Shown here: piece after piece, positions 6,336-56,407 of the stretch
Layout of the letters: each line of letters opens with the position of its first letter
Numbering within the stretch: position 1 is the first letter of the stretch
NCBI GenBank assembly: GCA_018105865.1
Contig: CM030848.1
Location: forward strand, 6,614,301-6,678,300
Reading direction: 5' to 3'
DNA: 64,000 bases
Origin: Metaphire vulgaris
Lineage: Eukaryota > Annelida > Clitellata > Crassiclitellata > Megascolecidae
Position numbers and translations under genes: made by a program
The notes under the pieces: model-generated
Database searches by the model: none
Told to the model about the DNA's origin: nothing
What the model saw: the letters and a program-made list of their open reading frames with translations, nothing else

Positions 6336-6339
6336 AGGT

Positions 6340-10540: not shown

Positions 10541-10769
<229 letters not shown>

Positions 10770-30624: not shown

Positions 30625-30703
<79 letters not shown>

Positions 30704-35976: not shown

Positions 35977-36027
<51 letters not shown>

Positions 36028-39000
36028 ATATATACATTATACACATACATATATATATATACACATATATATACACACACATATACACACACACACACAT
36101 ACATACATACATACATACACCTCTTACATTGGAGTACCATTCATTACTATGCTAAATAGCCATATTATTTGACCATAAGATCTGATGCTATAAATCAGTG
36201 ATGGGCACAAATTTTTATTCGAGAGCCGCAAAAGTGTCTGCGACGAAAGTCGAGGGCCGCACAATTGTTTTGGCATTTAGAATACAATTTTTAAGTAGTT
36301 TCCAAAACGACTTTAACATAACGTATTAGGCCTATATACTGTGCAGTGTTAAGTATTTATTAATAAGCCAAGACTGTCAAGTCGAAGAAAAGTTAGTAAA
36401 TATTAAAAGAATCATTTCTAGTTAACGATCAAGTGACAAAGTGTAAATCCAATGCTCAATGAATTCTGAATTTTCCATTAAGGTGTTGTAAAATGTTTCA
36501 TAAGCTTTAGAGGGCCTCACATTAGTGCAATATTTCTCGATGTCGGGGGCCGCACAAAAGGGCTTCGAGGGCGCATTCGGCCCGCGGGCCGCACTTTGCC
36601 CATCCCTGCTATAAAATCTAATGATGAGTAATTTTCAGTTCACACACCATCAACTCCCAGTTCTTTGACCGTCTCTCCTGAGAGAGTGATGGTGTTGTCA
36701 CAATCCGCCCAATCAGTTCCATCAAACTGAGCCGTGCTGAGAGATGGAAATACCAAGTCTTCAACAGGTGCATTAACATTAACGACTCTGACTTCCACAA
36801 CTAAAATACAAGGAAATACCATCAGTCAAGTTTTGCAGAAAAAAGATAGATAGAATGAAGCATAAAAATGACTGACTGCATTTAACAAGGTAGCTAATAA
36901 AAAGTCGAATAGACAAAAACCTTTCAAAGACACAAAATTCTGCAGTATAAAAAAAAAATTCATGCAATTTAAAAATAAGGTTTGGCAAGCTTTCTTACTG
37001 TAAGTTCTGCAAATATGGACTATCAGTTATGTCATTGACCAACATTCACCTACTTAGTCAAAGTCTAAGTAAATGACACTTCAATCAAAAGTAACTAAAT
37101 TTCATATCATGAAAAAGTTTTTCACAGCACCTAATATATCAATTGCACTTATGCAATGCTCCAAAAACTAGAACATTAATTTCTTACAAAGCTTCAAAGA
37201 CACTTCATCAAATTGAATGACACAACTGCCTTTAAAATTATTGCTAAAAGCAAGTAGATAACTCCATATAATCAATGTATTATCAACATGCTGTCCTGCT
37301 AACCTATGTTAACAGTAACATTGACAACAATTGTTGGCTTCTGCATTGTTCTTGCGACCTGGTTGACACTATCTTCAACCGTAGATATCATCCGCGTAGC
37401 TGTCTGCATCTGTTCGGCTTGCGGAAGATCTTTCCATGAATCAAAGTGTTCCTTGTCCAAGAGATTACTGCTTGTCTTCAAGACAGCCTGAAATGAAGCA
37501 GAGTTCCTAAACGATGAATAGCACGGCCATGGATTTTACAATCTAAAGTTAAACCTTTTCCATTCACAAAGCTGCTGACATATGGTGAAAAAGAGTTGAC
37601 CTACAAGACTTCAAAAATTAATTAAAAACATGTCATGAAAGCCCAAATTTACAAAATAAAATCATTGAATGCCAACAAAATCTAGTCAGCTTGTACCTGG
37701 TTGACCCTATGGACCAGATGGTTGGCTTGTTCTGGTTGAACTTCATGGATGTGTTCATCTACTTGCTTGACAGCCTCTTGCATTGCTGTGGTCACGTGGG
37801 ACAGATCTCCACCAAAGACTTCTTCATAAGGTTCCGTCAAATGGCCAAGATCAGTGGCAATGACTTCTATTATTCCCGGATTGAAATGGTCATGGCTGTC
37901 TTGTAGCTGAGTTGAAATATGACAAATTATAGCAAGAAGATCAGCAGGAAAGAAGAAGAAAAATATGGATTTTGTAAACAGATATCGTACAGTATCATAA
38001 AAAGAGTAATTTCTCAGTTACGCACTTTCAGTGTTATCACCGCTCCTCAAACACCACTCCCATGCTTCAAACAAATTACAAAACAGCAATTCTCGATATG
38101 CAAAATATGATTGCCAATCCCTAGCTCTAGGTAATTCTGGTCTTTGAAATTCCTTTGTCACAGCTCAACATATCCACACGATCTCTGTTGGTACCTAAAC
38201 TTTAGGGACCTGCGAAGCTTCGATATTCGATTCGAAAACGAATCGCAAGAAGTATTCGATTCGATTCGGAGTGAGCCGATCGATTCAAAAGTTTTCGAAT
38301 CAGTAATCTTGCTCATTCATTTGTCTGGCGGGCTGAGTCATCAGTACATCCCACGCATTTACAGCTACCTGCTGCCTCAGACGATGAGCTAAGCTTATAA
38401 AATTAGAGCTAATTATTTTTAAATCAATCTCATTTTTGTAGCCCATAGAAATGTCTTCTGTTAGAAATTATTTTGAAGAGAAGAAACGTTGATTAGCTTG
38501 CAAAATATGCCAACAAATTCTCGTCTCAAGCGTCTGGCGCGACGTCCCATAAAAGCATACTACCAGTGTTGTTAAATGTGGCGCGCAACTTACTTTCTAT
38601 AGAAGCTATTCTGTTGGCAGGGCCACCTTAACCACCAGGCAGTTTAGGCACTGCCTATAGGCGAAAAATTTAGTAGAAGCGAAATAAAACGGGGATGAAA
38701 ATTTTTCATGAGCGAATAACGTTGTTTGCTTGTCAGGCTATTTCGCAGAGCGCTAACAACCTTTTTTTGCTCGTCAGACTTTTTCCGTATGTGAATGATG
38801 ATGGGCGAAAATTTACGAAAATAAAAATCTGCCTAGGGCGCCCACAATTCTAAAGATGGCCCTGTCTGTTGGCGGACAAATAATAACAGACCTCCGCTAA
38901 AACCTCTCCAGAAGTAATGCAGAAACTCTTATTTGGGCTCGGCATAACAAAGATGTGTTACAGTATTTTGTCAATTGACATGTAGACTAAGCAGTAAACT

Positions 39001-42000
39001 TCTTGAACTTGGCTAAAACTTAAAACAAATCTAGTGCAAGTAGTCTAGTAATATAACAATGATTTTGTTGGCAAACACGTGTACTTAGATATAAGCTATT
39101 CTATTAGGCCTATCTGTCAGATTGCATTTGCAATGTAAGCTGATGTATTACACACACTTATCCCAGCCGGAAAACGGCACTCGCCGATTCGATATTCGAT
39201 TCGAACCTTAACAGTCGATTCGATTCGAGATTCGATTCGAGTGCAAATTTGTGATTCGCAGGTCCCTACTAAACTTGTTTGGTCTTCAACCACTTAACCG
39301 CATATTTAACTGTAACTCAATGTAAAATGGACGGATATATCCGGGGTCCCCAGTTAAGGGGTTAATATGTGACTACCGGTATATGTCCTCTCGCTTATAC
39401 AATTTAAAGTACTGGTATGCGAAAGCATTAAAAAGACTTAAAACACTGCAATTCATTTCAAACCAAGAATACCACAAACTAGTTTCTCACAGTCTAAATA
39501 CAAATTTCCTACAATCAAGAAATTGGGAAAATTCTTTCGACATTAAATAGCGACAGCATTATAGTCAACTTTAGTAAAGAGTTCTATATTAATCACCAAA
39601 ACTCATAAAAAAATCCCATTGCACCAAATTTTACCAGGATGCGATGATAAAATTAAAATTATGCAATTTAACACAACACATTTTATATTTCCCAACAATT
39701 TACTTGTACCAATTGCCTGAAGCCAATAACAGTAATCTAAAGTTACAATTACAGGACGACAGGTCTGTAAAGTCTGACCCTAAATACTATGTTCAGAGTG
39801 AAGAAAATTGGACACTTTACTAGAAACATCCTACATTTATCATGTCACATTTAATTTATTCTGTGGCAGTAAAATTCTCAACACAATCAGTTTTAGAGTT
39901 TGTAATAAACACATTATTTATCCATTATACGCCTGGGGGTATATCGGTATATATACCCCAAAATCAGTCTACCCTAAAGTTTTTATGTGATTTATATGTA
40001 GTTATATGTGGTTTATATGATTTATAGTTAAGATTTATACCCCCCCCCAATATTTATACCTCCAAATCAAATTCCTGGCTATGCCCCTGGTGCTTCTGCA
40101 CTTCCTTTCTTCGTGCAACTAGGTTAGTTGTCCAGTTGAGAATATTCAGCAAAAATTTTATAACCCATCAAATTTGTTTTCATAAAAAATAGAAGTAAGC
40201 CTTCAGAAAATTTACCATGTTCTCTATGTTAGTAATTTGAGGCGAAACACAGCCACTCAAGTCTGGCCTGTCCTTCCACTGCACAGGATTTTTTTCACAC
40301 ACCCAAAAGGCCTTTCGTACTGAAAAAGAATAGCACATGATTATCGTTTAGCATATGAGGGACAACTAAAATTCTCAACAGATGAGATCATTTCTAAAAT
40401 GAATAATTATCGCTCATAATTATTAATTGCCAAAAGACAAACAATTTGGATCACACAAAAAGAATTTGCACTTTTCCACAACACACCTTTCAATCATTAT
40501 CCTTGTCATCCGTCACCATCATCATAACAATACATAAAAGGCTGTCCATTAATTACGTCAACAATTTAAAGGAGAAGGGGGTTTGAAGAAGTTTGACAGT
40601 TGTTGACAGGAGGAGGGGGGGGGTCAAAAGAAGTTGATGTCAACAATTTCACTTTTTACAAATAATCAAAAAATAGGAAATTTCACGGAATACTACTTAT
40701 TACAATGGAAAAAAGCATGGAAAAAAGGTCATCACCACCACATTTTGACACTCGATGAGCAAAACAGGGAAAAATGGTCATCACCGCAAAAAATAATAAC
40801 CTTGATATTGGGACCTGCCATCGATATTGAGGGGGGGGTCAAAAGTTTTTGATGTAATTATGGGGGGGGGGTAACTGAAAGTTGACAGTTGTTGACAAGG
40901 GGGAGGGGGTCAAAAATTGTTGACATAATTAATGGACAGCCCCTAAACTCATTATTTCACATTTAAGCACTGTCTGTTGAAAAGAACAGTACCCCTATAT
41001 AATTGATGGCTGTGTACAAACAAAGCTCTTCTGAATAACAATGGTCATTTGTCTCAATAAAGATAAAAAATGAAAGCGAGTAGAACCCTTAATAATTAAA
41101 TGTCAAAACAGTCCTTTTTTGATAAGTCAGCAATAACCTAGCAGATCTTTACATGCCTCCAGGACAACTGGCACTTCAGACTAATGCTGGCTTGCTCTCA
41201 ACCAATTACAGTCATCCAATTCTGGGGAATCATAATAGGTCAACAATTAAAACCTCAACAATGTTTGCTTTTAGTCTTTTAGATCTTCTTATCTCAGCGT
41301 TTGAGAGCATGCTAATTTGGAACTCTGCAAACAATGTCGGCACTTAACTTTAGAACACACAATGGATAGCCCAACACCACCCTTACATTTCCGTTTTACA
41401 ATTGCATTAAGTGCTAATAACTGATTGGCATTTCCTACGATTATACCTGCAATAAGTGATCTTAACAACTACTAAATTTCCAAATTTTATCAGGTGTAAC
41501 ACTGTATTAGAGAAAATCCACTAGTTCAGCCTAGTGGCAAAAAATTCTGTATTAAAAAAAAAACTTTGACAACATAGAATAAAATAGCTTCTGATTCTGC
41601 CATATTTGATTTTTCTTGGATTTTTAAGCATTAATAAAATGCAATGTAGCTGAGCAATCACTAAATAACTCAACTCTATTAATCAACGCCCATGTAGGGG
41701 CTTTAAGGCAACTCCAATGGCAAACAGATGAATGAATGACTGAGAGGTTAAACGTTGAGACCCAAATATCACACCCATCAGACAATGATCAAAACAGAAA
41801 AGCACATAAATATAAATTATTTCAGTGGCACTGACAACCTTTCTTCTTGCAGTACTCTAAAAATTACTGGAACTACACCCCAACACTAATAGGCATCGAC
41901 AGAGAATTGCCATAGGATGTTATCATGAAAGTCAAAGAGCAATATTTTCAGGAACTATTTACCGAAAACCACTTGGGCATTCCACAAAGAGCTGGGCAAA

Positions 42001-42671: not shown

Positions 42672-45600
42672 CACTCCTATAACAGCAGTTTTAATACTCT
42701 AAGGGGGTGGTTCTCAAACTTTTTAGGATTTCTTGTGTGGCGGTCCATTAGAAATTTTTCTGATGGCTTGTGGACCTTACAAAATTAAAATTTTAAATTA
42801 ACTACAATTATATTAACTACAACTACACAGGCTAACAATTAACATACAACAGTTATTTATTCAAATCTTAGTAATCAAATTTAACTTTTAACTTCAAAAT
42901 TCAATGGGACAAATGTACCTGCTTTGCCATGACCAGTTCTTCTATGTTTGGCTTTGTTGACGAGATATCTTGAGAAAGTAATCCCTTAATGGTCCCTCTA
43001 AAACTGCTTGGCGGCCCGTATGGGGACCGTCGATCTTAGTTTGAGAACCGCTGTTCTAAGGGTATCAATCAATGGTATTCCAAATCCGTCCGCAAAAGGG
43101 AACCAGGTTGTTCCTGAGATCAGCCAACAGGAAACATCAAGGCAGAGCTTTGGAGAATGAGCTAATTGGAAGAGATGTTTATAAGCTTAGGTCTGAAAAT
43201 ATTCAATTATTTGGAATGTCTGACAGCGAGAAGAGAGTTCCATGCTTTTTCTAGGTATACTTAACAATGAGTTAGCAAATCTTGTTGAATGAGAATGTTT
43301 TGGGTGATCTAGCATACCCGGTAGATTTCAAGTATTGAGGTTCACCAGACTGCAGTATTTTATAAACCATGAAGCTAGTCTTGAATACAATTCTCTGTTC
43401 AATCGGCAGCCAGTGTAAGTTTTGAAGAATAGGTTTAATTAACATGATCACCCTTAGGAGTTCTAGTAATGGCCAGAGCAGAGCAACAGAATTCTGAATC
43501 CTTAGAAGTTCTTGGCACAATAGAATTGGCCATGCCATTGTGTAGAGAATTGCAATAATCAAGTCAACTGGTGACAAGAGCATTGGCAAGAGGTATCAGA
43601 CCAGTCTTGGGCACTAGATCACAAATTCGTTGAATGTCTCTAATTTACACATGAACAGTTTTACATACTTTATCTACATGATCATTAAACAACACGTTTT
43701 TATCAAATGCTACACTTAGGTTGCGGACATACTGACTTTGAGCGACTGAAATTTTGTCAATTTTAACAGAAATAGTGTCTTCAAATTTACTGAGATTAAT
43801 TGGTGTTCCAAGAAGTAAAAATTCAGCTTTTGAAGGGCATAATAAAGGTTTGTTAATTAATGTATAATTGTATATCCAAGGCTGAACTGTTTGCAGACAA
43901 ACAGATAAGCAGATACATTTGTTATGACTGTGAACTCATATGAATTGAAAATCTGAAATTCACCACAAATCTAGCTTTTACTGAACCATATATTTTACTC
44001 ATATCAGTATCTTTTATCTAGCAATCTGATACCTCATTATACAGAAGAATCATGATTAACAGGAACACAATGACAAATCTTGCAAAGGTTGGTTAAGTAT
44101 AGGTGTCATTTAGTCATATTCAATGACTGTAACTCTATTCAACTTCAAACGATTGAGCTACCAGACTCATACTCACTTATAACACACATTAACTGAAAGA
44201 CCTGACTATCTTAAACTGCAAATCTGCTTCTGACCAACTGCAGTAGGGACAAGTGTTATTTTTAGGATTGGGGGGGGGTGTAAAAATATCCCTGGTAGGG
44301 ACAGAAACCAGCAACTATCCTAATAAATACAGACTCAATCCACAGATGAACAAACTGCAATAAAACGAATAAAAATGAAATTTCAGCTTGCAAGCAGACG
44401 TTACCTGTGGGGTTGTTAGGGCATTCCATGGTAACAGTTTCACCAGGCTTGGCTTGTGGCCAGTCAATTTTCCGACTAGAGGTAGGCGAGCAAAAGAGTT
44501 CAACCTCGGTGGTAGTAGGAGGCAACGAAGCAGTCGACCTGTGCCGAAACCGACTGGAACGCCTGGTGCTTGTAGCCAAAGTGGACGTCGTCACCGAATC
44601 TGTAGCGAGTACTTCAAGAGTTGAAGACTTCTTTGCGTCGTACCGAGTGGATCCACTGGTATCATGTGAAGCTGTTTCACGAAATTCGGTTGATATGAGG
44701 CTTTCTGGTGGGAAGACAGGACTTTCTGTAGCATCAAAAAGTACAAATGCTAACTGCAAATACCGTAGTCACCATGCCATATCTCTAATATATGAATAAC
44801 AAAATTCACATACTATTACACTGATAGTAAAACTGATTGCTGCTTGAAAATCATTTGGATAGCACAAGAATGTGAAATATGTGTTAGAAAAATGGTAGTG
44901 ACAATTAAAGATTGCAAACAATCAATGTACAAGTTTTAAAAAGGTTCTTATACATTCCAAGAAGGTTCAGGCTTGAAGTCAAGGACAGTTCAGTTATAAG
45001 CCGAAACAGTGAGAAGCTCAGTAAATTCCAGTTCAGCTGCTATTAGACTCCGATGCTGCAAAACTTCTTTGGGCCAGATGCGAAATTCCAAGAATTAAGA
45101 TAAAATGTCAGTCGCTCCATGCCAGTGCAGAATTTTTTAAAAGAATAGCAGCCCTTGAGTACACAATGCCACTAATTCTGTCAGGAAGTCAATCAGGTGC
45201 CATCCTTACAGAGATTGAGAAAGAGAAAGATTGGCAGTTCACACTGCAAACACTCCCTAACACATGCACACACATACACACACACACACACACACGCGCG
45301 CGCACACACAGAGCTAAAGAATCACAATTGCTGCAGTGGTGTACTAAAACCCTGGACCAAAAATCACGAATTATAGTGGAATGCAAGGATATTAAATCCA
45401 GCAGAAACACTTTAAGGGTGGCAGCTAGTGTACAAGCACAAGCAGAGTGCAATCTAATGCAAAGGGAAGTATTACCGGTAATCTTACAGCACAACAGCCC
45501 GTGCTTGAAATATGAATAGGGTGGCCATTCATAAGTTTACTCATTTGACTGCTAGAGCACCACCGGAAATACAAGGGTTTTGCAGGGGAAAGGCAATTCT

Positions 45601-48600
45601 TGGCAATTGGTTTCAATCAACCAACAATTTACATCTGTTGATCCCTTTAAAAAAGTTTGTTTAATACATTTTTCCTGTATGCATCTGGAGTAGAGTACAA
45701 TTAGATTCTCAAATGAGGCTTTGAATATGTATGTACACTGTACATTTTGCATATGCAATATATCGTGTATAAACCACAGTCATACAAAATACTTCATACA
45801 TACAGTGAACTCATGCATTGTTAGTCAAATAAGCAGAATGGGATGATAAGGGATTACTTTACGTTATGACATACAATAATGTTCTTGGTTAAGCAAATAG
45901 GAAAGTTAATTCACTTTCCTCTGAGAATGATCACTGAAGCAATAAAAACACCTCCACGGCCCATTTTTGCCTTGCCTTTGACGAGCCATTTACCTGGGAT
46001 TGATCCCTCGGCACTCATATGTCCACCAGCACAGAGTGGATTTAGATAATTATGGCATGTATAGCACTTTAGGATGAAGGCTTGTGCAACATTTTCGAGG
46101 CACTATATAAATGTAAGGTTTAGGTAGATTTACAGGTCTCCATCATAAGTCTCAATTATTGAATGCAAAATATGCAATAGCACATAGGAGTAAGGAGCTA
46201 CTTCGGTGCTTCTTTTGAAAGCGCTATACGAGTTAACGAGATTTTACTTACTTACTTACTTACACTCCCAAGTCTACAGATGCTTAGAATCCTGGCTACT
46301 GAACGAAGGCCTTCTCTGCTCATTTGCAAGAATTTGGGAAAGTGGTTTTTTTTACTTTGGTGTAAATGAGCAAGAGAACATTCATGCAAAATCCCCACAT
46401 AAAACTACGGACAACCTCCAAAACATAACCAGCGATATTCTACTTGAACTGAAATTGCTATTTTTACTTTGGACCCTCCACATTTCTAAATTCCTGGATC
46501 CACCATATTCAGGGCTCAGACTCCTGCAGAGTCTATGAACCCTGTGAAATAATATTTGCAGAAGCATTTTGAAATGTCTCCAATGCTAACTGTTGGATCG
46601 AGCCAGAAGGAAGGGGCCGTCCATAAAGCACAGCATGCTAATTTTGCCATCGTAACGCCCTCCCCATGTGACAAATTTCAGACCCCCTTAAAAGTATGTC
46701 ATTAATCTTGGACCCCTCAAAGTGTCATTCATAAATTATGTCACGCAGGTCTTCTATTTATTATATTCAAATTTCTTGTTCAATTTTCGGTAGTAAAACA
46801 GATATTCACCTTCCAACAATGAATACAAATATAATTGAGACCTACAATTTTATGTATTCAGGGCAAAAAAGTGTTAATGCGCCATTAAAAGTGTCTTTTA
46901 CTATACCTCCCATAAGGCATATTTAAGGTTTCATTTATACTAAAAGTGTGACATCATGCTGGGCCTTCCTCCCCATCACAAACTGAGGTGAATTCTGATA
47001 CAAGAAATAGCAAATGAAGAAATGGGATAATGTCATCAGCTGAAGCCATTGCAAATGCAGCACATGAATAAGCCAGGAAATAGAATAACTTAAGAACATA
47101 ACCAGCCTTACTGTATTGAAAGATGGCAAGACCAATGATGGTTGGCAGGATATGGACCAACGGCTGAACAGCAAAATAAACTTGCACATGTGGTGAAAGG
47201 GAGCATCACCATTGACAGGGTGAAGCAAACAAATTCCACCAGAGATAGAGAGAGAGAATCAAAATAAACCAACAGACAAGACCCAAGATCCAAGATAACA
47301 AACGGGGAAGGCAAGAATGGGTAAATTTGTTTTGGTCACTTCAAAGACAAACCATGATATATTATTGTCCAATACAGGACTAGCTACCAGTTTTAACACG
47401 TCTGCATACATGTATCACAAAGGGATAACAGAAATAATTTTGGAAACAAACACAAACTTGTAGCTTAAGAGGTAGTGGGCTAGAATCCCACTCTGCAATC
47501 GGATATCTGACTACTAGTGGGGGAGTCCGACAGCCAAAAACCAAACATTTTCGGCCACCTGCTGTGGCTGTCTTCAACAAGAGGATGGGGTTCAAACCAT
47601 ACCTGAATTCCCATGCAAAGTGAATCATGTCTAGTATAAACTAAGTCCAACTCCACGGCAGTCCATATCTGTTGATTGAATTGCTTAATATCTTGTTTGC
47701 AAAGTAATTAATTTACACTGGCATAATTTTAATATAGTACATAAACTGTTCACTGGTGTTTTCAAGGCCAATCATTTTACCAAAACCATTGATTACTTAA
47801 TGATAATTACATTTAGCTCAGTCCATTTAAGCCTGCTTTGACTAAGAGTTTAATTTAATTTAACCTGAAAATAAACTTGACAAACATATCCAAGTGGCGT
47901 ATTAAGTTGTTTATTAGAAGGCCCTTTAGCTAAATAAAACCATCAATTTTACCTTCTTTACATCGAAACTGGACCTCCAGATATTTTGGGGTCAAGCTAC
48001 AAGGGTCTCCAAATTTCCTGTTAGTAGCTGGTATACCACAGATTCCAACCTTGCCTTCACACCTGTCATCACCAAATTCCAAGATGAAGATTGCATGTGA
48101 ATATAACATACAAGCAGCATGACAAAAAACATGCACTCTGTAATAATGTTAAATCAATCACATAAAAAATGTTAGCCCTAAACTACTGACTTCATAACTG
48201 TTACACTTAAAAGGTAAAGAATTCTCAAATTTAAACCATTTCCAGTTAGTTCACAAATATCTGAAATATATAAACTATTAAACATGCAAAGATGTGATGT
48301 CATTCAGACAAAACCAGCTAAAAAATGTAAATTCCATGTTATTATCTCTGCAAATAATGTTGCTTTCATTTATTCCACTCACAATCATATGCATCATTTT
48401 TAGCAAAACATGAGCATATAAAAACATTAATCAATACAGTACTATGAAATATACCCAAGAAGTACAGTAAATCTAACAGTCATTAGGAATAATTCAGAAA
48501 ACAGCATAACTGACAAGAATGACAAAAGTCTGAAGAAAATTTGTTTTTGTCCACAGTTTTGAAGACAGAAAAATCTGTATTTACCGGGGTACATTTTGTA

Positions 48601-51600
48601 TTGCAAAATATAGCTCAAGTTGACATTAATAAAATCAGGACTGCCTATGAAAATGAAACTATAGATTAAACCAAAAGACACATCTCAACTCCAGCCTTAG
48701 ACATGCATGTAAAGGGCATCTATATTTCTGAAACAAGCAGATACATTGCTCTGTTCAAAAGCCTACCCTGCTTGACAATAACAGGATGATTCTCTAAATG
48801 CTTTGCAGTTGATGATTATTTGAAGAAAGCCAACTACCAGTAAACTAGAGGCCAATAGTGTCAATGCATTCTTAACCCCACCACGGCCTTATAAAGCACC
48901 TTATTGTAATAAATAAGTACAATATGGTAGTCTTTATAAATACCATCTCCATAACTGGGCTATTTCTTCCAAATGAACTACCAGTAAGTTTGAGAAATAT
49001 GCATCTTTTCAACATCTCCATTGATATTCCTGTCATACTTGAACTATTTCTGACACAGATTTAGTCTGATTTCCATGTCAGGCTTTAAACACTGCTTGTA
49101 ACTAAAAATCACAGTCATGCATCAGCATCAATCACTCAACTTGGGGATCAAACCAGAAAAGATGTGGACCAGAGTATCACAGGCAAATGAGTTGTAGGGA
49201 ACAAACCACAAAAGAATATTCTGAATATCACAGGCAAATGTGTTGTTGGTTTCACAAGCAAGGTGTTCAGTAGTTATCAGCTGAATTACTGGTAATAAAT
49301 AGGATATTTTAACCTCATATATCTGCATTTACACAGAAAAAAATTATATTGTCAATTGATTAAAACATTTTTCCAGTTTAACAGTGCATGTTTTCCAGTA
49401 AATGTTATAATTTTAGTCTATTCTAGCTACATAGTTTTGCTATTGATAATGTACATTTTGTCACATAGCTTTAATTATTATTATAGATGTCATCTGTACA
49501 TTACTACAGCTAATAAAAGTCGTTATGAACCATGGGTACCAAGGACTTCACAGCTCTAGGCGATCTCCCTCTTTTGACCTCAGCCAAGGCAGATGGCAGA
49601 TGTCTAAGGGCCCACCCATATATTATCTAGGCAAAAAAGGCATATTTCCAACCTCCCACCCCCGTTGGAACCCATTCATTTGTTGGACCCCTATGCATAT
49701 GTAAAAATTAGCTTCTCTACCCCCCCCCCCCTGAAAAATAAATTGTTTGCCATAGTCACGAGGCATTTGTTTCACTATTAAATTAAAAGTTTTCTTAAAT
49801 AGTATTATAAAACCGGCCAGGATTGTAACATAATAAAAGCACTGAGACTGAAAATCTCTCTACGAATATTGTAACCCTACCGCAACTTTATTTTTATTTT
49901 TTTGTCTAAAGCATTATTAATGCATTTTGATAGGCACCTATTAAAGAACAAGTAAAGAGATTTCTGTGGGAAAGTGGTGTCCTAAATTTCAACAGCCTAC
50001 CAAGCTGATTTATCACAGCAGACATTTAATGCAGTCGTGCAGTACAAACCTTGTAAATACACTGGGTGACTTGAACAGCTCATTGATTACACCTGTCTTT
50101 GTAACCAATACCTTGGGGCAAACCTGTTTTAAGTGCATTTTGTCACTTTGTCAACCAAATCCACTGTTCTTAAAATCCCAATTAACTTTTTATCCTCATA
50201 AAATTTTTGTGAAATTATATGACAAGGATAGATTAGTCTGATGACATTTACATAAATAACACAGATACTAATGGCTTCATCTTGAGGCAAAATGCTGAAT
50301 ATTCTCTAAATTTTAAAATCTTTTTAAATTGTGGAAAATTGGACAAGAATTCAGACTTAATTTGCAGCTTTACACCATGGCACTGTGAAGAGGATTATGG
50401 GTATTGTTCCATCAAATGAAAGTCACTTTCTGATTGGTTACTTTGAAAGTATAAAAACATAACCAATCACTTTCAACTGTGGTTTTGTGAACATAAGCCC
50501 ATATGATTTATATCTAATGTGGTCATATTTAGCTAATCTGTGTTAAATTGTCTTTTTCAATACATATACTTCAAGGCAACTATCACAATCATATTAACAT
50601 TCTTTGAGAATAAAATCATTGGACACATTTTGCAGAAGTGGAGTCCGTCTTGACAACATGAACAAGCTGAACATGTTTGTTTGTGCTGTCAATAATCTGC
50701 AACTTGTACAACAACTTCTAATACTTGAACAAATCCAAGTACATCTAAATTACCGGTAGTAATAATAGTGGGGTAGTAGTAGTTGTAGTGGTGGTAGTAG
50801 TACCAGCTGCTGTAGTAGTTGTAGTTTCTAAGATATTCAAGTAAAACCCTGCATGTAAGTGCTACTTCTTTCCATAGGTAATGTAGCTGAGGGCCTTCAG
50901 TCGTGTGTCACTTATTTGGCTTGGATGTCCAAAGACAAATATTAATATATAGAAGTCCCACACCAGTCAATTTCTTCTCTAATGGCCAGTTTACTCTCCA
51001 AAGAGCAAGGTATGGTTTTCTAAAGGTTAGCAGCACAGGGAATCCAGATAAGTGAAGGTAACGGACTACTGTAATAGCATCCTCCTGGGTCTCCCCAATC
51101 CTGGGTCCCTCCTCAGTCAATGACCGCGAAGTTCGGAGAGAGGTCTGTCACACGAGGCAACCCTCTCCTATGGAATTCGCTGCCCGACTCAGTGACCGCA
51201 GACACTTCCTTCGAGTCATTCGCCACTAAACTTAAAACGCACCTTTTCAACTCATCGTACGATTGTTCCACGTAAAGCGCTCTTGACTTTGGCCCTCGCT
51301 ATGCTACTGCGCTATATAAATCGTCATGTAGAATAGAATAGAATAGAACTGCATTTTCCCTCCATTTCATGTTGGAAAGTCGAAAGTTGAACCAATAAGA
51401 ATAGAGGTTACCGGTAGTGAATTCAACTTTGTATCCTAGCTACTTTGAACAAGATACTTCATCTCTTTTCTCTTTCCATCCTGTACATCCAGGCAAATTA
51501 TAAATGGCTTCTTTATCAATGGGGTCAGCACAGGTTTGCTGCATTTTAATCCCTCCTCCCAGTAAAATGGTTCATTGAACAAAACAGCCAATTAAGAGAC

Positions 51601-51985
51601 CATCTGTTACAGCATTAAAATTTAAATTTTAACTCACAGCAATTTTAATTCAACCTTCTTGCTGATTAAAAATCAATATCTAGAGTGCTTCAACCGGCTC
51701 CTAACTCAAGTTGTAAAGCTTAACATCCATCATCCAAAGAAAGCAAGCTGGATTTACAAAGTGAACGTCATGCCTGACCAACCCTTTAGACACTCTGGAG
51801 GAGGTCTATGATAACCTAGATGAAGGCAAGGCAGTAAAAATAATATATTAAGATTTAGCCAAAGCTTTTGATAAAGTACCCAATACAAGACTGGCTGCCA
51901 AACTGAAGTCCTGTGGAATAGGAGGGAATATTCTCAGATGGATTCAAAATTGGTTAAAGGAAAGAAGACATCCTCGCCATCGTCG

Positions 51986-52045
<60 letters not shown>

Positions 52046-54225
52046 GTTCAAAGTTCCCTCAGGAACCGCGGAGACTAGAAGAAGACAGAAAGTTGGCATA
52101 AGGGGTGTGTATTTGGAACAGGCAAGAGTCTTTATTGGAGTGCCTCAGGGCTCAGTGCTTGGGCCAATGGTTTTTCTAGTATGCATATATATGATATCGA
52201 TGAAGGATTATTATATCTAAAATGTCCATGTTTGTCCAATGATACAAAGACGCACAGAAATATTGAATCTGATGATGATGATGTTAACATTTTACAGTAG
52301 GATCTAAGAAAACTGCATCAATGGTCTGTGGACTGGCAGATGCTTTTTAACCCCTTAAGTGGAAATTAAATTTTCAGACACTGTCATCGTTCTGGGGATT
52401 TAATTTTAGGAAAAACGTTTGTCAGAAACGAATACTGTAACTTTATAAATTTGCTTTACCTCAGGCTATATAAGAGCTATGAACATGATGTAAACACCAT
52501 TGTTTAGCTTTTTTATTCCTCTTTCTAACCACCTGTACAGAAAAAAAAAATTGGGGTAGGGTCCACTCTACGGACCCTACCCTCTACCCCCCTACCCTCA
52601 AAGAATATATATTTTCTCTTTCAAAGAGGCGATATAGATGAAAAATAGGTGCTATCTAGCGAATGGATGGGTACTAAAGCATTATATAGCGTAAAATGTG
52701 TGTTATATCGCGTGGTGTTGACGAAACACTATGGAACTTCATGATGAGCGCAATTCAGAGAACCCATTTAGTGAACGCTGGCGGATGACGAGCGCAACTC
52801 AGGGATCCCAGGCAAGAGGTTAATATCGACAAATGTTCTGTAATGCATGGTAGGAAAATCCAATCATGGTAATAAATACGCTTTGGGGGAGGAGGCTCTA
52901 ACCACCACAGAGGAAGAAAGAGACTTGGGGGTAATCATCTACAGAAGTGTGAATCCATCTTGACAATGTATGGAGGCAGCAAAAAATGACAACTGAATGC
53001 TGGGAATGATGAAATGAACATTAGTGAGCCAAAAGAAAGAGACAATAATAACACTATAAAAGTAGTACCGGTAGTACGGCCTCATCTAGAATACAGTACT
53101 GTGTTCAGGCAAGGAATCCAGTTTTGAAAAAGATGCAAAGACGAGCGACAAAGATGGTCAATGGATGTCCTAATTTAGGCTATGAAAAAAAAGACTTCAT
53201 TATTGTGGAGTGACCACATTAGAAAGGAAGAGAGAGAGAGAGAGAGAGAGAGGAGAATTGATATTGATAAAAACATAGAAAATAATGACTGGGAAAGTAG
53301 ATGTGCCATACAGTTGATTCTTTAAATTAGCACACTATAGCAGCACAAGAGGCCACAAATGCAAAATTTTTAGTGCAAGGGTTGTATAATGTATATGGAC
53401 AAATGGAACAGTTTGGACAAAGTGGCAGTGACACTAGAAACAGTAAACGGATCCAAAGGTTAATAATTACCGGTACCTGAGCAAGCTAGGTTACTAAACT
53501 ACAGTAGATATGGTAGTTACTGTAGTGGTTTTCACACACTTTTACTTTTACTGTAGTGGTTTTCACACACTTAGCCTCCTAAACTACTTCAAATAACATT
53601 ATCATTATTATAATAATAAATTATTATTATTACTTTCTATTGTTCTGTGGTACAAGCACTTAACAAAACATCAGTCAAGAAACACAGATGCAAAAGCGAC
53701 ATTTTATAAAATATTCAGAAAAATAAATGAAAATTTACTAAATTCTTCAATGTCATTTAAATTTATTGACGGATGAATTTCCAGCTAAAGAAATAATTTT
53801 TAAAACTTAATACACTTCACCTAACAAACAGGTCAAAGCACTCACAGCATAGGGTTTTAATACCCTAACATACAAAATATTCCATCACAATCGCTATGCT
53901 ACAGCGCCACAGAAGTCGTCCAGAACTGAAATAACTAAGAAGCTTTCAAAAAACAAGGCAGAACAAGCAATCAATACATGCAGCAGGCATTTTTTTACAT
54001 TTTAAACACTCTCATGGAAGCTAAATGTCTTTAGCACACAAGCCATAATAATATGCATGCTGCCCAAGCAGACTGGGATCCCTTGTGTCACAGGTCACAT
54101 TCCAGACAAGTATCTTACCTCTGACACAGTCATATTCAATCTCAAGATACTTGAAAGTAGTTGAACAAGTATCCCCAAAGTGAGTACTCAGTGCAGACAC
54201 AACACACGATGGTTTTCCATAGCAC
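21893..54225 (-). CDS. ADGRL: Latrophilin/Cirl-type adhesion GPCR, spliced gene, 5' end not in view
   Basis: Whole-gene entry; exons follow separately. Adhesion GPCRs of this family are plasma-membrane receptors that bind partners on neighbouring cells with an N-terminal lectin domain, self-cleave at a GPS and signal through G proteins by a tethered agonist. Twenty exons were placed on the minus strand from GT-AG borders, phase and family similarity. Domain order is SUEL lectin (C-terminal half), Ser/Thr-rich linker, HormR, GAIN, GPS, seven helices, cytoplasmic tail. With one SUEL half-exon and without the 82-nt cassette the chain has 942 codons and a stop, every junction in phase. No olfactomedin domain is seen, as in known invertebrate members. 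The signal peptide and first half of the lectin domain are missing. Introns hold antisense LINEs, SINEs and MITEs. Family assignment is firm; the L1/L2/L3 subtype has no meaning outside vertebrates. Confidence 0.93.
22585..25734 (-). other. Receptor introns around the candidate cassette exon
   Basis: Non-coding, AT-rich, with a short (TA)n at 23907-23926 and a CT run at 22682-22708. Only 23541-23622 looks like an exon. Confidence 0.6.
23541..23622 (-). CDS. Candidate alternative tail exon (82 nt, frame-shifting cassette)
   Basis: Good acceptor (TTTGTTTTCAG) before 23622 and a weaker donor (AAAAC, GTAATC) at 23541/23540. In the frame set by the preceding exon it reads [20 protein letters not shown] then TTPNQTK: basic, Ser/Thr-rich, open throughout and typical of latrophilin tails. 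Its length is not a multiple of three, so inclusion moves the last exon into another frame that ends after about 28 codons. This would give a short alternative C-terminus. Exon status is inferred from splice signals and composition only. Confidence 0.5.
25735..25857 (-). CDS. ADGRL: Exon: start of cytoplasmic tail
   Basis: 123 nt, phase 0 at both ends, acceptor TTTTGAAG, donor GTGAGT. It encodes [20 protein letters not shown] then a Ser/Thr-rich end ([14 protein letters not shown]). This matches the 'KKVRKEYGKCLRTHCC' segment that follows helix 7. It can join the last exon directly in frame. Confidence 0.9.
26390..26558 (-). CDS. ADGRL: Exon: membrane helices 6 and 7
   Basis: 169 nt, acceptor GTTTTCAG, donor GTGAGC, phase 2 to 0. 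It encodes [20 protein letters not shown] and [20 protein letters not shown]: the GLTW.FG helix 6 motif and LNS.QG.FIF.FHC helix 7 motif, hallmarks of adhesion GPCRs and nearly identical to latrophilins. Confidence 0.97.
26690..26912 (-). repeat. tRNA-derived SINE region (head and tail)
   Basis: On the minus strand there is a pol III A-box (TGGCAGAGTCGG, about 26891-26902) and a B-box (GGGTTCAAGCCCC, about 26850-26861), correctly ordered and about 40 nt apart, in a tRNA-like 75-nt stretch. A tail shared with the copy at 59645-59800 follows (GGCAGTAATGCC, AAATCATGCTAAG). It lies inside the receptor intron between 26559 and 27682, in the same orientation as the gene. Confidence 0.75.
27010..27120 (-). 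repeat. 5S rRNA-derived head of a SINE
   Basis: The minus strand has blocks matching the 5S rRNA internal promoter: GAAGTTAAGTAGCGTTGAGC (A-box/intermediate element region) and GTACTTGAATGGGTGATC (C-box region, 5S consensus GTACTTGGATGGGAGACC). It lies immediately 5' of the tRNA-like SINE body at 26690-26912, an order known from dual-headed SINE3/AmnSINE-type elements. It is degenerate relative to a functional 5S gene. Confidence 0.7.
27683..27789 (-). CDS. ADGRL: Exon: membrane helix 5 (end) and intracellular loop 3
   Basis: 107 nt, acceptor TGTTTAG, donor GTGAGG, phase 0 to 2. It completes helix 5 ([13 protein letters not shown]), followed by a basic loop ([15 protein letters not shown]) that in this family contacts G proteins. 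It joins the TM6 exon as I-R-S-W-V. Confidence 0.92.
27950..28089. mobile_element. hAT-type MITE, 140 bp, in receptor intron
   Basis: Termini CAGGGTTATTTCTAGGATTG and CAGGGATATTTTTACACC; perfect repeats CTTAGAGT at 27942-27949 and 28090-28097. It sits 82 bp from exon 28172. Confidence 0.85.
28172..28238 (-). CDS. ADGRL: Exon: extracellular loop 2 Cys-Trp and membrane helix 5 (start)
   Basis: 67 nt, acceptor TTCTGTAG, donor GTAAGC, phase 2 to 0. It encodes [20 protein letters not shown]: the conserved CWL motif (disulphide to helix 3) and the F.W.F.GP start of helix 5. Confidence 0.95.
28463..28529 (-). CDS. ADGRL: Exon: membrane helix 4 (end) and extracellular loop 2
   Basis: 67 nt, acceptor TTTGAAAG, donor GTAAGT, phase 1 to 2. 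[19 protein letters not shown] matches the GIPA.IV.IS...D...YGT segment of the family; it joins the next exon as T-H-C-W-L. Confidence 0.93.
28530..29707 (-). other. Receptor intron with imperfect minisatellite-like repeats
   Basis: At 28970-29225 the phrase 'CATTAATRCCACC...' followed by a pyrimidine-rich block recurs three times imperfectly. Otherwise unique. Confidence 0.4.
29708..29861 (-). CDS. ADGRL: Exon: membrane helices 3 and 4 (start)
   Basis: 154 nt, acceptor ACTTAG, donor GTATGT, phase 0 to 1. It encodes [40 protein letters not shown] and KWYYFAAYG. The Cys at the top of helix 3 and the LEG.QLY.MLVEVFE signature of latrophilins are present. Confidence 0.96.
30315..30417 (-). CDS. 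ADGRL: Exon: intracellular loop 1 and membrane helix 2
   Basis: 103 nt, acceptor TGTTGCAG, donor GTGAGT. It contains the family signature [13 protein letters not shown] followed by [20 protein letters not shown], closely matching vertebrate latrophilin TM2. It is one of the most secure exons. Confidence 0.96.
30628..30702 (+). repeat. (TA)n microsatellite in receptor intron
   Basis: About 37 TA units in the intron between the TM1 and TM2 exons. Confidence 0.95.
30882..30991 (-). CDS. ADGRL: Exon: membrane helix 1
   Basis: 110 nt, acceptor TTTGACAG, donor GTAAGAG, phase 0 to 2. A short juxtamembrane piece ([11 protein letters not shown]) leads into the hydrophobic helix [20 protein letters not shown]. 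It joins the TM2 exon in a split Lys codon. Confidence 0.93.
31825..31948 (-). CDS. ADGRL: Exon: GPS autoproteolysis motif and tethered agonist
   Basis: 124 nt, acceptor ATTTTTAG, donor GTATTA, phase 2 to 0. It holds [19 protein letters not shown] and TNFAVLM: the remaining GPS cysteines, and the His-Leu/Thr cleavage triad is intact, so self-cleavage and exposure of a TNFAVLM agonist are expected from the known mechanism. An N-glycosylation sequon (NTT) lies between the cysteines. Confidence 0.95.
32250..33045 (+). mobile_element. CR1-like LINE, 3' part of reverse transcriptase and 3' tail
   Basis: The translation shows the C-terminal region of CR1-group reverse transcriptases: [19 protein letters not shown], then after a frameshift near 32640 [30 protein letters not shown] and [12 protein letters not shown]. 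The 3' tail ends GCGCTATATAAATTAG and a (TAAC)n run at about 33025-33042. 5'-truncated and frameshifted, hence dead. Antisense to the receptor, within the intron between 31949 and 33263. Confidence 0.85.
33264..33313 (-). CDS. ADGRL: Micro-exon: GPS first cysteine and Trp
   Basis: 50 nt, acceptor TTTGAAG, donor GTAGG, phase 0 to 2. It encodes [15 protein letters not shown]: the NP.CsFW.YS segment with the first GPS cysteine and tryptophan. Phases fit the flanking exons exactly. Too short to appear as an open reading frame on its own; found from the gap left by the neighbouring GAIN and GPS exons. Confidence 0.9.
34178..34730. mobile_element. hAT-type element, TAACTG-rich, next to receptor exon
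   Basis: Termini CAGTGTTGTTTCAGTTAACT and CAGTGTTGTTTCAGTTATTG; perfect repeats CCTCCAAG at 34170-34177 and 34731-34738. The ends are arrays of TAACTGTAACTGAAA. It sits 66 bp from the donor of exon 34797-35122. Confidence 0.88.
34797..35122 (-). CDS. ADGRL: Exon: GAIN subdomain B core with acidic insert
   Basis: 326 nt, acceptor TTACTAG, donor GTAGGC, phase 1 to 0. It begins [15 protein letters not shown], the counterpart of 'AFVLYNNLG.FL', has an acidic loop ([20 protein letters not shown]) longer than in vertebrates, and ends with [22 protein letters not shown], the beta strands before the GPS. A 553-bp hAT element starts 66 bp into the downstream intron and its target repeat lies 58 bp from the donor. 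Confidence 0.9.
35974..36119 (+). repeat. (TA)n, (CA)n and (CATA)n compound microsatellite
   Basis: TA block, interrupted TATACACA stretch, CA block and ATACATAC end, in a receptor intron. Confidence 0.9.
36196..36608. mobile_element. hAT-type (Charlie-like) MITE, CAGGGATGGGCAAA family
   Basis: Left CAGTGATGGGCACAAATTT, right CAGGGATGGGCAAAGTGCGG with GGCCCGCGGGCC next to it, a very widespread animal hAT terminus. Target repeats CTATAAAT (36188-36195) and CTATAAAA (36609-36616). It ends 40 bp from receptor exon 36648. Confidence 0.8.
36648..36800 (-). CDS. ADGRL: Exon: GAIN domain, A/B junction
   Basis: 153 nt, acceptor TATTTTAG, donor GTGTGTG, starting with two bases and ending with one. 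It encodes [15 protein letters not shown] and [15 protein letters not shown], matching the 'VEV ... L.FP ... I.LS...LK..G..G' block of latrophilin GAIN domains. Confidence 0.9.
37304..37487 (-). CDS. ADGRL: Exon: GAIN subdomain A, second part
   Basis: 184 nt, acceptor ATTTCAG, donor GTTAGC, phase 0 to 1. It carries the diagnostic [17 protein letters not shown] and [15 protein letters not shown] segments, the counterpart of the 'LLxPxxLxSWxDLPxxEQ' helix in vertebrate latrophilins, then VNVTVNI with one N-glycosylation sequon (NVT). Confidence 0.92.
37697..37906 (-). CDS. ADGRL: Exon: GAIN subdomain A, first part
   Basis: 210 nt, phase 0 at both ends, acceptor CTCAG, donor GTACAA. The 70 residues are largely helical and acidic ([20 protein letters not shown], then [20 protein letters not shown]). 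This corresponds to the helical N-terminal subdomain of the GAIN fold, which sits against the autoproteolytic subdomain B. Confidence 0.85.
38203..39268. mobile_element. hAT element, 1066 bp, with BED-finger relic and nested MITE
   Basis: Perfect termini TAGGGACCTGCGAA; perfect target repeats CTAAACTT at 38195-38202 and 39269-39276. Both ends carry dense ATTCGATTCGA subterminal repeats, the typical transposase-binding layout. On +, from 38450, [13 protein letters not shown], stop, [13 protein letters not shown] and KHTTSVVK resemble a decayed BED zinc finger of hAT transposases. Nested MITE at 38618-38864. In a receptor intron. Confidence 0.85.
38618..38864. mobile_element. hAT-type MITE nested in 38203-39268
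   Basis: Termini CAGGGCCACCTTAACC and CAGGGCCATCTTTAG; perfect repeats TCTGTTGG at 38610-38617 and 38865-38872. Contains GCTTGTCAGGC and TTTTTTTGCTCGTCAG. Confidence 0.85.
39298..39361. mobile_element. Possible 64-bp TTAA-flanked remnant
   Basis: TTAA at 39294-39297 and 39362-39365; the right end read inward is CCCCTTAACTGGGGACC, like the CCCCTTAAGTGG terminus of the element at 52351. Perhaps an internally deleted derivative. Confidence 0.35.
39929..40091. mobile_element. Relative of the GGTATATCGG MITE, left end lost
   Basis: Shares GGGGGTATATCGGTATATAT, CCCCAAAATCAGTCTACC and the right end ATTCCTGGCTATGCCCCTG with 17209-17435. The left terminal bases are missing. In a receptor intron. Confidence 0.65.
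40216..40319 (-). CDS. ADGRL: Exon: HormR domain, C-terminal part
   Basis: 104 nt, acceptor TTTTTCAG, donor GTAAAT. It encodes [23 protein letters not shown] and NIENM, matching the HormR end (Cys, Trp, then PDLS-Cys-.SP) that precedes the GAIN domain in latrophilins. It starts with two bases and ends in phase 0, fitting the neighbours on both sides. Confidence 0.9.
40540..40943. mobile_element. TIR element, GGCTGTCCATTAATTA family
   Basis: Near-perfect inverted termini GGCTGTCCATTAATTACGTC and GGCTGTCCATTAATTATGTC, continuing AACAATTTT. G-rich blocks 'GGGGGTCAAAAGWWGTTGATGT' recur inside. No protein. Target repeat not clear. Lies in the receptor intron just beyond exon 40319. Confidence 0.65.
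42572..42670 (+). repeat. (GAT)n-(TAA)n microsatellite
   Basis: Short GAT run then about 27 TAA/ATA units, in a receptor intron directly beside the MITE 42705-43053. Confidence 0.95.
42705..43053. mobile_element. hAT-type MITE, CAGTGGTTCTCAAAC family, copy 2
   Basis: Left GGGTGGTTCTCAAACTTTTT, right CAGCGGTTCTCAAACTAAGA; target repeats CTCTAAGG (42697-42704) and TTCTAAGG (43054-43061). Shares ATATCTTGAGAAAGTAATCC with 9883-10214. Confidence 0.77.
43062..43880 (-). mobile_element. CR1/L2-like LINE fragment
   Basis: Minus strand translation in several frames: [50 protein letters not shown] and [14 protein letters not shown]. The HWLP..QR..FK motif is typical of CR1/L2/Jockey C-terminal regions. 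Several frameshifts, so dead. It abuts the hAT element 42705-43053. Confidence 0.75.
44251..44294. mobile_element. 44-bp minimal derivative of the 27950 MITE
   Basis: Only the two ends remain (TTATTTTTAGGATTGGGG and the right end AAAATATCCCTG) between perfect repeats GTAGGGAC at 44243-44250 and 44295-44302. Confidence 0.7.
44405..44725 (-). CDS. ADGRL: Exon: Ser/Thr-rich linker and start of HormR domain
   Basis: 321 nt, acceptor CTACAG, donor GTAACG. About 75 residues rich in Ser, Thr and Arg form a linker that is a likely O-glycosylated stalk. It is followed by the first strand of the hormone-receptor domain ([26 protein letters not shown]) with the first two HormR cysteines and the Trp-Pro typical of latrophilins. 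The linker is poorly conserved in the family, so its exact ends rest on splice signals. A 44-bp hAT remnant lies about 110 bp into the following intron. Confidence 0.85.
45256..45311 (+). repeat. (CA)n and CGCG microsatellite
   Basis: CA units with a short alternating GCGCGC stretch, in a receptor intron. Confidence 0.85.
46218..46264 (+). repeat. LINE-type 3' tail ending in (TTAC)n
   Basis: Counterpart of 5745-5795, with four TTAC units. In a receptor intron, antisense. Confidence 0.5.
46614..46975. mobile_element. TIR element, CCGTCCATAAAG family, decayed
   Basis: Left GGGGCCGTCCATAAAGCACA, then the internal block ATTCATAAATTATGTCACGC and a segment shared with 20706-21272 (TTTTCGGTAGTAAAACAGAT, GGGCAAAAAAGTGTTAATG). 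The right end is eroded. In a receptor intron. Confidence 0.5.
47953..48062 (-). CDS. ADGRL: Exon: SUEL lectin domain, C-terminal half, version B
   Basis: 110 nt, acceptor CAG before 48062, donor GTAAAA at 47952. The translation has [14 protein letters not shown] and KYLEVQFRC, the same half-domain as the exon at 54119-54225 with the same start and end phases. It joins the linker exon (44725) in frame through a Glu codon. Because both versions start needing two bases and end with one base, they cannot be spliced to each other in frame. They are therefore either mutually exclusive alternatives or belong to two domains with an unseen N-half exon between them. Confidence 0.88.
48063..50899 (-). 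other. Long receptor intron, no exon found
   Basis: Searched on the minus strand for the N-terminal half of a SUEL domain (Cys-x-Gly and A.YGR motifs) between the two lectin half-exons; none was seen here or up to 54118. Confidence 0.45.
50900..51350 (+). mobile_element. CR1-like LINE 3' end, truncated
   Basis: Fragments read [10 protein letters not shown] and, further on, [25 protein letters not shown] sequence in mixed frames, ending with a tail nearly identical to the element at 32250-33045 (AAAGCGCTCTTGACTTTGGC, then GCGCTATATAAAT). It finishes in a short (ATAGA)n run. Intronic and antisense to the receptor. Confidence 0.7.
51984..52046 (+). repeat. (ATC)n microsatellite inside an RT relic
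   Basis: About 20 CAT/ATC units grown within the reverse transcriptase sequence; it reads as polyhistidine. Confidence 0.93.
52351..52819. mobile_element. TTAA-flanked (piggyBac-like) nonautonomous element, 469 bp
   Basis: Inserted within the RT relic: WQMLF before and NIDKC after are rejoined when one TTAA (52347-52350 or 52820-52823) and the insert are removed. It starts CCCCTTAAGTGG. The interior carries TTGGGGTAGGGTCCACTCTA, matching in reverse the interior of the element 60641-61688 (TAGAGTGGACCTACCCCCAA), so the two belong to one group. Confidence 0.7.
53515..53690 (+). repeat. Fragment related to the hAT element 1164-2143
   Basis: Contains a duplicated 'TAGTGGTTTTCACACA', then TTAGCCTCCTAAACTACTT and an ATT-rich run, as at about 1197-1273. 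No intact ends. Confidence 0.5.
54119..54225 (-). CDS. ADGRL: Exon: SUEL lectin domain, C-terminal half, version A
   Basis: 107 nt, acceptor CAG before 54225, donor GTAAG at 54118. It begins with one base that completes a split codon and ends with one base of the next. The translation shows the SUEL (galactose-binding/rhamnose-binding lectin) C-half pattern: CYGKPSC, then HFGDTC, then KYLEIEYDC. The four half-domain cysteines and the FGD turn are present. The domain is extracellular and in latrophilins binds glycans and partner proteins. The end phase fits the linker exon at 44725, giving a Glu codon at the joint, but does not fit the other lectin half-exon at 48062. Confidence 0.88.
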
Positions 54226-56407
54226 CTGGCACCCAGACATTTTATAATGATAACTCTAAATTATCAATAATTATTATTACTTCATGCAGAAAGAATACAA
54301 AGATCAAGAAGTAAGAAATTCATACACAAAGAAATGAAATGATACTTAACAAAATTTTCATCTACAAATTATTAACATATGTACATTACTTTTGAGAATA
54401 TGTCTCAAACAAATATTGTAATACTGGGTAATCAGATAAATTAAGTTAACTTCAGTTTTATATTAGATAACTGAAAATTATATCAGACTCTAATATGAAT
54501 CATTGTCTACTATGTATTAATTTTTTTCATATATAAGACCAAAACTATAACAAATGGTGTCCTAAAAGTGAAGCAATGCAGAAATTTCACTTACAACATT
54601 GAAACAGACATAATGTATAAAGTGTAATGTAAAGTAAATTAACTACACATTCAAGAAACATGATCCAAATTTAGTATTTCAAATACATGTTAAAAAAGAT
54701 GTCTTAAAGTCTGCTGAAAATACATATTATCATCAATCTACATTTAAAGAAAATGGCACACAAACGAGAATGAAAATGAAAAATAGGATAAAGAATCAAT
54801 AGTAAACTATAAAGATTCACTTCATTAAAGCAGAATATTGCACTGAAAACAGAATACAAGCAAATGAATGTTGAAAAATTTGTAAATTCAGTAACTCAGA
54901 CCACCAACACAATAAAGATCAAAATGGCAAAAAGTAAACAGAAAGTCCACCCAATGTCATATCAACTTGTGATTTCCAAGCCACCATCAATAACACACAC
55001 AACCATATATATATATATATATATATATGACAATTTTTAAAAATACTACCTAATAGAAAAGCTGCCATAAACCACTCTACAAACATATTTGTGAATGAAA
55101 GAAGAATTGAAGAAATAGACATTTATTTTCCAGTGGGAACAATGGGCAATGAGGTGAAATGCAGAGAAAAGCTGGCAAAAGCAGATGTGGACATGGGTTG
55201 GGTCCACCCATGGATTGGTTTGGGTTGGAATGGGTCAGAAAATAAATCACGGTTTAAGAAATTATAAGTTATGTATTATGGTGGGTTGTGTTGGATCAAG
55301 TAATCCTATTACTTTAATGGGTTTGGTCGGGTCTGAATCATGATGAGTTGGGTTGGAATGGGTTTTAAAAAATGGACCCACATCCATGATCCATATTCAC
55401 ATGATCCACATCCATAAAAGATACAGACATGAGCAAATTTCCAGACCAACCGTCTGCTCCACAACAGCTACAAGCTGATAACCGTCTTAAAACAGTTAAA
55501 TACAGGGCAGATGAAATACATGAAAATATGAATTTGCTCCTAACAACCTCCCAACAAACAGGGTCCTTTTATTTTTCCTTTCCTGAAATTTAGTGGCTGC
55601 ATCATATAAGAATTCCTCAAAGTGGATATGAAATAGAAGAAACTAAACAATATGTATAAATAAATATTGCATGAATTTGAATTCAATTTGCTTTCTATAT
55701 GTTTGTGACCCTACATGTGTAACTGTTGAGTATTAATTAATTGGCCAAATGAAGTAAGAGGACGAAATCGAGGAATTCAACTTAATTTCTAGCATAGCAC
55801 CCAAACTTTTAATTCCTGTATTATATAATGTAACCCAAACCTCAAAATCTGTTTCAAATTTGTCAGGGCAATGAAACAGGCTTAGGCATGCCTCCAATTT
55901 CTCAGACATCACATGGCTTGGCATAAGCCAATGACACCAGACACTCTATGGGTGCTGTAAATGGTTGACCATTCCAGAATGTCCTGAGTCCGATTTGTTG
56001 TCCCAAAGCCGCTCTGGTGATACTTGGCTTAGATTTGCCCTAGAAATTATCTGCCTTCTATGTTGAGAATTGTCTTATGATCAGATTGTCTCCTTCTTGT
56101 AGACTGTACGGGTATTGATCTGTTTTATCTGGGTTGTAGATCTGATTTATAGATCTAATACGTTTGATCTCCTGATCTCTGATTAATCTGATCTGTTAAT
56201 CTGGTCATATATCCTATGCCACTACAGGAGCACACAATAATCGGTGATCAAAGGCAATGGAAAAATTCTTGAGATCAGATAAAGAGCAGTTGCAGGTGGT
56301 TGCTCCACTATGGTAAAATCGGACATATTACGGTGGCAGAGAAAGGAAAGAAATATACATCCCAAGAAGGAAAACGACAAAACCATAACAAAGTCTGCTA
56401 GACGGCC
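54226..56407 (-). other. Upstream intron or 5' flank, no exon found
   Basis: AT-rich unique sequence. At 55190-55385 there is a degenerate minisatellite of TGGGTTGG-like words. The missing first lectin half and signal peptide were not found here or up to 64000. Confidence 0.45.

Follow-up and report, generated by a model that had tools for sequence, protein, structure and literature searches.

The window, by which we mean the whole 64,000-nt stretch of Metaphire vulgaris DNA under study (C17:6614301-6678300, from a genome of 728 Mb in 246 contigs), carries on its minus strand a gene that, judged by its domain order and closest relatives, is an annelid latrophilin (ADGRL-type adhesion GPCR). 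Two of its exons, here called A and B, encode alternative versions of the C-terminal half (C-half) of the SUEL lectin domain. We put at roughly 0.87 the probability that these are mutually exclusive exons which, through an RBFOX switch suggested by the surrounding sequence, give the receptor one of two lectin faces. The mutually exclusive reading is strongly supported by the DNA, and splicing very probably picks one exon of the two.

Organization of the latrophilin gene

The predicted product has the order SUEL lectin, HRM, GAIN, GPS, 7TM and tail, with tail exons reaching down to about 22 kb of the window; all the exons listed here lie on the minus strand. The exon for the N-terminal half of the SUEL domain (N-half) lies 2.9 kb past the window end (67113-66921 on the window scale, C17:6681221-6681413), starting in phase 1 and ending in phase 2 (GCA AT|gtgagt). 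It is followed by exon A (54119..54225, 107 nt) and exon B (47953..48062, 110 nt), both with a phase 2 start and a phase 1 end, and by an exon for a Ser/Thr-rich linker and the first half of the HRM (44405..44725), which starts in phase 1 and whose 3' end was set at the GT following CCCCACAG. Beyond these are the exon for the second half of the HRM (40213..40323, approximate ends from tblastn), several GAIN exons (34797..37906, approximate outer ends), the GPS exon (31826..31950, approximate ends) and the 7TM exons with the start of the tail (25733..30991, approximate outer ends).

The GAIN and GPS domains score well above their Pfam cut-offs (50.3 bits against 26.5 and 41.5 bits against 22.5, respectively). 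Pfam detects only the first half of the HRM, at 24.6 bits against a cut-off of 26.2, the second half having been found with tblastn. The 7TM exons likewise come from tblastn (e.g., 29861-29703, 77% to P0003, E=7e-23); Pfam reported no 7TM domain in the frame scans, where these exons are short. No olfactomedin domain was seen in the window gene. Among the full-length relatives in the matches listed, the first match aside, ADGRL proteins of Capitella, Owenia and nemerteans rank best, and a tree of the GPS-7TM part groups the gene with Capitella (97/96) and two more sequences. Elsewhere in the window, at 4044-6465, 10418-10807, 32251-32972 and 51852-52220, translations examined by eye reveal long CT and GACA-type microsatellites and reverse-transcriptase-like fragments.

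Two interchangeable C-half exons

A preliminary description of this DNA had read A and B as the same half of a SUEL domain, each with one base of a split codon at either end, that cannot be spliced to each other in frame and that can both be joined to the linker exon at 44725; all of these points hold. Each exon is preceded by AG and followed by GT, and contributes a G to the split codon at its start and another at its end. Taken singly, both match positions 47-80 of PF02140 (A, E=2.5e-8, 34.6 bits; B, E=2.7e-6, 28.1 bits), B alone falling below the whole-domain cut-off of 31.4 bits and being missed by long whole-frame Pfam scans. Exon A bears the signature C-x5-C, GDTC and KYLEI, and exon B the signature C-x6-C, GDPC and KYLEV. 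The two have 16 of 36 residues in common, and the exon duplication is old, as the saturation of their silent sites (pS 0.87) shows.

At the upstream junction the AT that ends the N-half exon forms ATG with the first base of either A or B, and at the downstream junction the last base of either enters the linker exon as G|AA, a Glu codon. The joined sequences N-half+A+linker and N-half+B+linker are both open, whereas with both exons included the frame runs into a stop at residue 123 of the translated stretch and with neither at residue 80; thus, the frame allows only the inclusion of a single C-half. Published sequence criteria for mutually exclusive exons are similar length, the same splice-site type and frame, and homology, a combination also displayed by 90 of 16,180 non-exclusive exons on the fly X chromosome (as given in PMC3228551). 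By these criteria A and B qualify on sequence as a mutually exclusive pair.

Four related loci with the same arrangement

Searching the genome, we obtained six matches with exon B as query and seven with the N-half, four of which adjoin A/B pairs; the other three N-half matches are weaker, two lying on C9 and one on C15. The four pairs belong to the window gene (g1), its duplicate g1' on C10 (N-half at 7948877, A-B intron of 3,197 nt), g2 on C17 (N-half at 5683569, A-B intron of 3,529 nt) and g2' on C10 (N-half at 7623500, A-B intron of 4,068 nt). The reading of the three paralogues covered their N-A introns in part and little of the region beyond B. We regard them as probable latrophilins from their lectin halves and, for two of them, from the HRM, a match to which is found near g1' and g2, with none listed for g2'. 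The two latrophilin-like genes on C17 (5.69 and 6.66 Mb) match those on C10 (7.63 and 7.95 Mb), a pattern suggestive of the block or whole-genome duplication of a tandem pair.

At all four loci a single N-half is followed by A and then by B on one strand, and all eight C-half exons have AG/GT borders, run from phase 2 to phase 1 and have a length of 2 mod 3. The A/B lengths are 107/110 in the window gene and 107/110, 107/110 and 119/110 in the three paralogues. All the cysteines, the frame and the splice sites are kept in both exons at every locus. In g1 and g1' the split codon before the C-half specifies Met whichever of A and B follows. The N-half of g2 and g2' has TT at its end; A2 and A2' start with G and B2 and B2' with A, giving TTG or TTA, both Leu. 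The two types also keep separate signatures: the A-types have C-x5-C, with D-T-C in three of four (K-T-C in A2'), and all four B-types have C-x6-C with G-D-P-C. A2' is 119 nt long and has lost the KYL motif; by its sequence this copy is decaying.

A lone C-half exon of 107 nt, with the same phases as A and B, lies on the minus strand at C17:5647572-5647678; there was no partner in the 10 kb read around it, no adjoining N-half match and no UGCAUG within 300 nt. Half-exon matches at C37:12489001-12499000 and C30:94501-104500 were considered as latrophilin pairs and rejected, as the genes there hold two split SUEL domains and by eye look EVA-1-like. The domain has also expanded in this genome at large: 150 matches were scored out of 438 candidates, spread across many contigs, and in all but six of the 150 nearly the entire domain lies in a single open frame, in contrast to the split form of the latrophilins.

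Absence of a second N-half between A and B

Tandem SUEL domains do occur in latrophilin-like proteins, the hemichordate sequences P0080 and P0084 having two whole domains each, and A and B could in principle belong to two complete lectin domains, with the second N-half exon having been missed. To look for such an exon we derived a SUEL profile from ADGRL homologues, of which 87 out of 120 contributed 96 domain rows; the final alignment contains 90 rows. When it was run against the window plus 200 kb upstream (264 kb, both strands, filters off, 11,534 open segments), three matches stood out, namely the N-half (best-domain E=1.9e-16), A (4.3e-10) and B (4.9e-9), the fourth being at E=2.5. Regular expressions, Pfam on stop-masked frames and SUEL profiles all found no second N-half in the A-B intron of the window gene, and SUEL profiles found none in the A-B intron of any of the four loci. 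With the general profile the 6,056-nt intron of the window gene reaches at best 2.7 bits and the introns of the four loci at most 3.9 bits. The real N-halves of these loci, whose identity to the query N-half is as low as 38%, score 40.6-66.2 bits with it; a profile built from the family's own N-halves raises the introns to at most 6.1 bits. Moreover, the phase 1 end of A cannot reach the phase 2 start of B without an exon between them. We accordingly hold the tandem arrangement to be extremely unlikely. The earlier suggestion of mutually exclusive exons, made on the frame break and on finding no N-half between A and B, is supported by the single upstream N-half, the phase that fits both exons and the intron searches. 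The recurrence of the layout at three other loci, the conserved intron flanks and the placement of UGCAUG, to which that description had no access, add to this support.

Constraint on the exons and their intron flanks

Comparison of the duplicated copies points to purifying selection on A1-A1' (dN/dS 0.20, Fisher P=0.001) and B2-B2' (dN/dS 0.20, P=0.018); the signal is weak for A2-A2' (dN/dS 0.62, P=0.45). B1-B1', with 2 silent and 14 replacement changes (dN/dS 1.95, P=0.52), has no purifying pattern. Between B1 (47953-48062) and B1' the silent sites are nearly unchanged (2 of 22.5), and codons 2-10 are strongly changed, a pattern that may reflect a loop that is hypervariable or, alternatively, constraint on the silent sites from splicing signals.

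Long conserved intron flanks are typical of regulated exons. In the g1-g1' comparison, for which 4.5 kb of g1' was read and aligned at E<=1e-3, the only aligned DNA around the C-halves consists of B with 210 nt upstream (48063..48272, minus strand) and A with 113 nt upstream (54226..54338, minus) and 75 nt downstream (54044..54118, minus); at the constitutive N-half the alignment extends only 16 and 9 nt into the introns. The g2-g2' alignment extends upstream by 123 nt from B2 and by 28 nt from A2, against about 18 nt at the N-half; it also includes a block of 52 nt within the A-B intron and two short stretches elsewhere.

These data bear on the possibility that one of A and B is a dead or dying duplicate and that only the other is used. 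Such decay would fit the divergence of A2', the excess of replacement over silent change per site in B1-B1' and the lack of matching transcripts: in a transcript search, a 209-aa query (N-half+B+linker) had 135 candidates and no match at E<=0.001. Against it, both exons have preserved frame, splice sites and cysteines at all four loci despite the saturation of their silent sites, and the intron flanks of both are conserved. We consider it possible for A2' alone, and very unlikely as an account of the pair.

Alternatively, B might be entered from a promoter and first exon of its own inside the A-B intron, the choice then being one of promoter and not of splicing from a shared N-half. As noted in PMC3228551, alternative first exons that lie in a cluster can be mistaken for exclusive exons, and the full-length variants of C. 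elegans lat-1 are described as differing mostly at the N-terminus (PMC11540312). Against this, B is preceded by an acceptor and a conserved stretch of intron, its split codon fits the same N-half at four loci, and a C-half on its own, lacking the N-half, would not be expected to fold into a lectin. These features make a separate promoter for B highly improbable, and we retain the choice between A and B by exclusive splicing.

UGCAUG sites and candidate FOX control

Three UGCAUG sites on the minus strand flank the two exons of the window gene: one 73 nt upstream of B (48130..48135; the C10 duplicate has one at -79), one 63 nt upstream of A (54283..54288; at -51 in the duplicate) and one 137 nt downstream of A (53977..53982). 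TGCATG is the sole hexamer present in the upstream 100 nt of six of the eight C-half exons, the next being TGTTAT with five. It occurs upstream of all four B exons (at -73; -79; -64 and -45; -67 and -48) and of A1 and A1' but is absent upstream of A2 and A2'. Within 300 nt downstream it is found at 4/4 A exons and 0/4 B exons, being there one of ten hexamers shared by the four A exons. The chance of TGCATG in a random stretch of the transcribed strand is 0.036 for 100 nt and 0.107 for 300 nt; as the four loci are related, no combined probability can be attached to its placement. For the 19 other exons of the gene, whose ends are partly approximate, TGCATG lies within 100 nt upstream in none, within 300 nt upstream in three and within 300 nt downstream in three. 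Of the three further N-half exons, one has TGCATG at -16, inside a TG repeat. No acceptor in the gene is poorer in pyrimidines than those of A and B (0.41 each), with which that of TM2 ties.

UGCAUG is the binding site of RBFOX, and FOX proteins are described as repressing the second FGFR2 exon and exon 5B of egl-15 via UGCAUG in the upstream intron (PMC2880598, PMC3585155). By analogy, the placement of the sites at A and B is as expected for a FOX-controlled pair like those of FGFR2 or egl-15. The sequence shows that the N-half exon ends in phase 2 and that A and B can each supply a C-half and restore phase 1 at the start of the linker/HRM exon. We suggest the following model of the choice between them. 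A protein of the RBFOX family, bound to the UGCAUG just upstream of B, would block the weak acceptor of B, and the sites downstream of A would favor A; B would be used where RBFOX is scarce or another cofactor is present. Half of the lectin domain would then offer one or the other of two faces, with GAIN, GPS and 7TM unchanged. A simple rule of "A on, B off" accounts neither for the UGCAUG that precedes A1 and A1' nor for its absence upstream of A2 and A2'. A search for the Fox-1_C family gave no match anywhere, controls included.

Comparison with other receptors and the age of the pair

The exon pair of FGFR2 encodes half of an Ig domain. Like A and B, exons 8 and 9 of FGFR2 (IIIb/IIIc) and 5A and 5B of egl-15 are neighboring homologous exons used one at a time in a cell-surface receptor, as described in PMC2880598 and PMC3585155; they differ in receptor class and fold, the domain here being a lectin, and in that exclusivity and FOX control are deduced for A and B from DNA. 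The vertebrate latrophilins ADGRL1-3 have the same order of SUEL, HRM, GAIN, GPS and 7TM, and splicing modulates their recognition; the splice described for this is a small optional insert between the lectin and olfactomedin domains, and other inserts are also reported (PMC6422961, PMC13108381). Exclusive events with the same start sequence are recorded for Lphn2 and Lphn3 (PMC6629964). For nematode lat-1, the account in PMC11540312 gives over 20 transcript forms and, in the parts available to us, states no exclusive half-lectin pair. We found no report of a half-lectin swap in latrophilins in the open-access literature, in keeping with the preliminary description, which knew of none. The reading of A and B as an exclusive pair is well supported at the DNA level. 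Such a pair is of a known kind, in which exclusive exons exchange half of a recognition domain; here it lies in a latrophilin and has been kept through gene and apparent block duplication.

With regard to its age and distribution, 87 of 120 homologues gave some SUEL match, and the C-halves of the 75 that passed a filter on match length were scored against A and B. None of the 75 has the C-x6-C of B, and the A- and B-scores overlap, so that neither result dates the pair or finds B elsewhere. In the predicted Capitella teleta latrophilin P0002 the N-half runs into unrelated sequence, without a C-half, which looks like a failure of gene prediction at that position. The predicted Steinernema hermaphroditum protein P0113 has a truncated C-half with D-T-C followed by a full one with G-D-P-C, which is the order of A and B, whereas predicted proteins of S. 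glaseri and S. carpocapsae have one C-half only; P0113 thus hints at a nematode half-lectin case and may serve as a lead. That a FOX-switched half-lectin pair is an old protostome feature of annelids and nematodes, with invertebrate latrophilins choosing between two recognition faces, is a speculative proposal that we consider rather unlikely.

Implications for latrophilin function

The lectin domain is described as the main teneurin-binding site of mammalian latrophilins in a review that doubts teneurin binding by invertebrate latrophilins (PMC6422961). The choice between A and B would probably alter the recognition of a partner or sugar, and may amount to ligand switching. If this animal does choose between two lectin halves, recognition would be switchable within the receptor itself, as it is in FGFR2, and an assay of one isoform could overlook a partner that binds the other. 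The proposal is directly testable, as it concerns one domain, two mapped exons and named candidate control sites, with four gene copies to compare.
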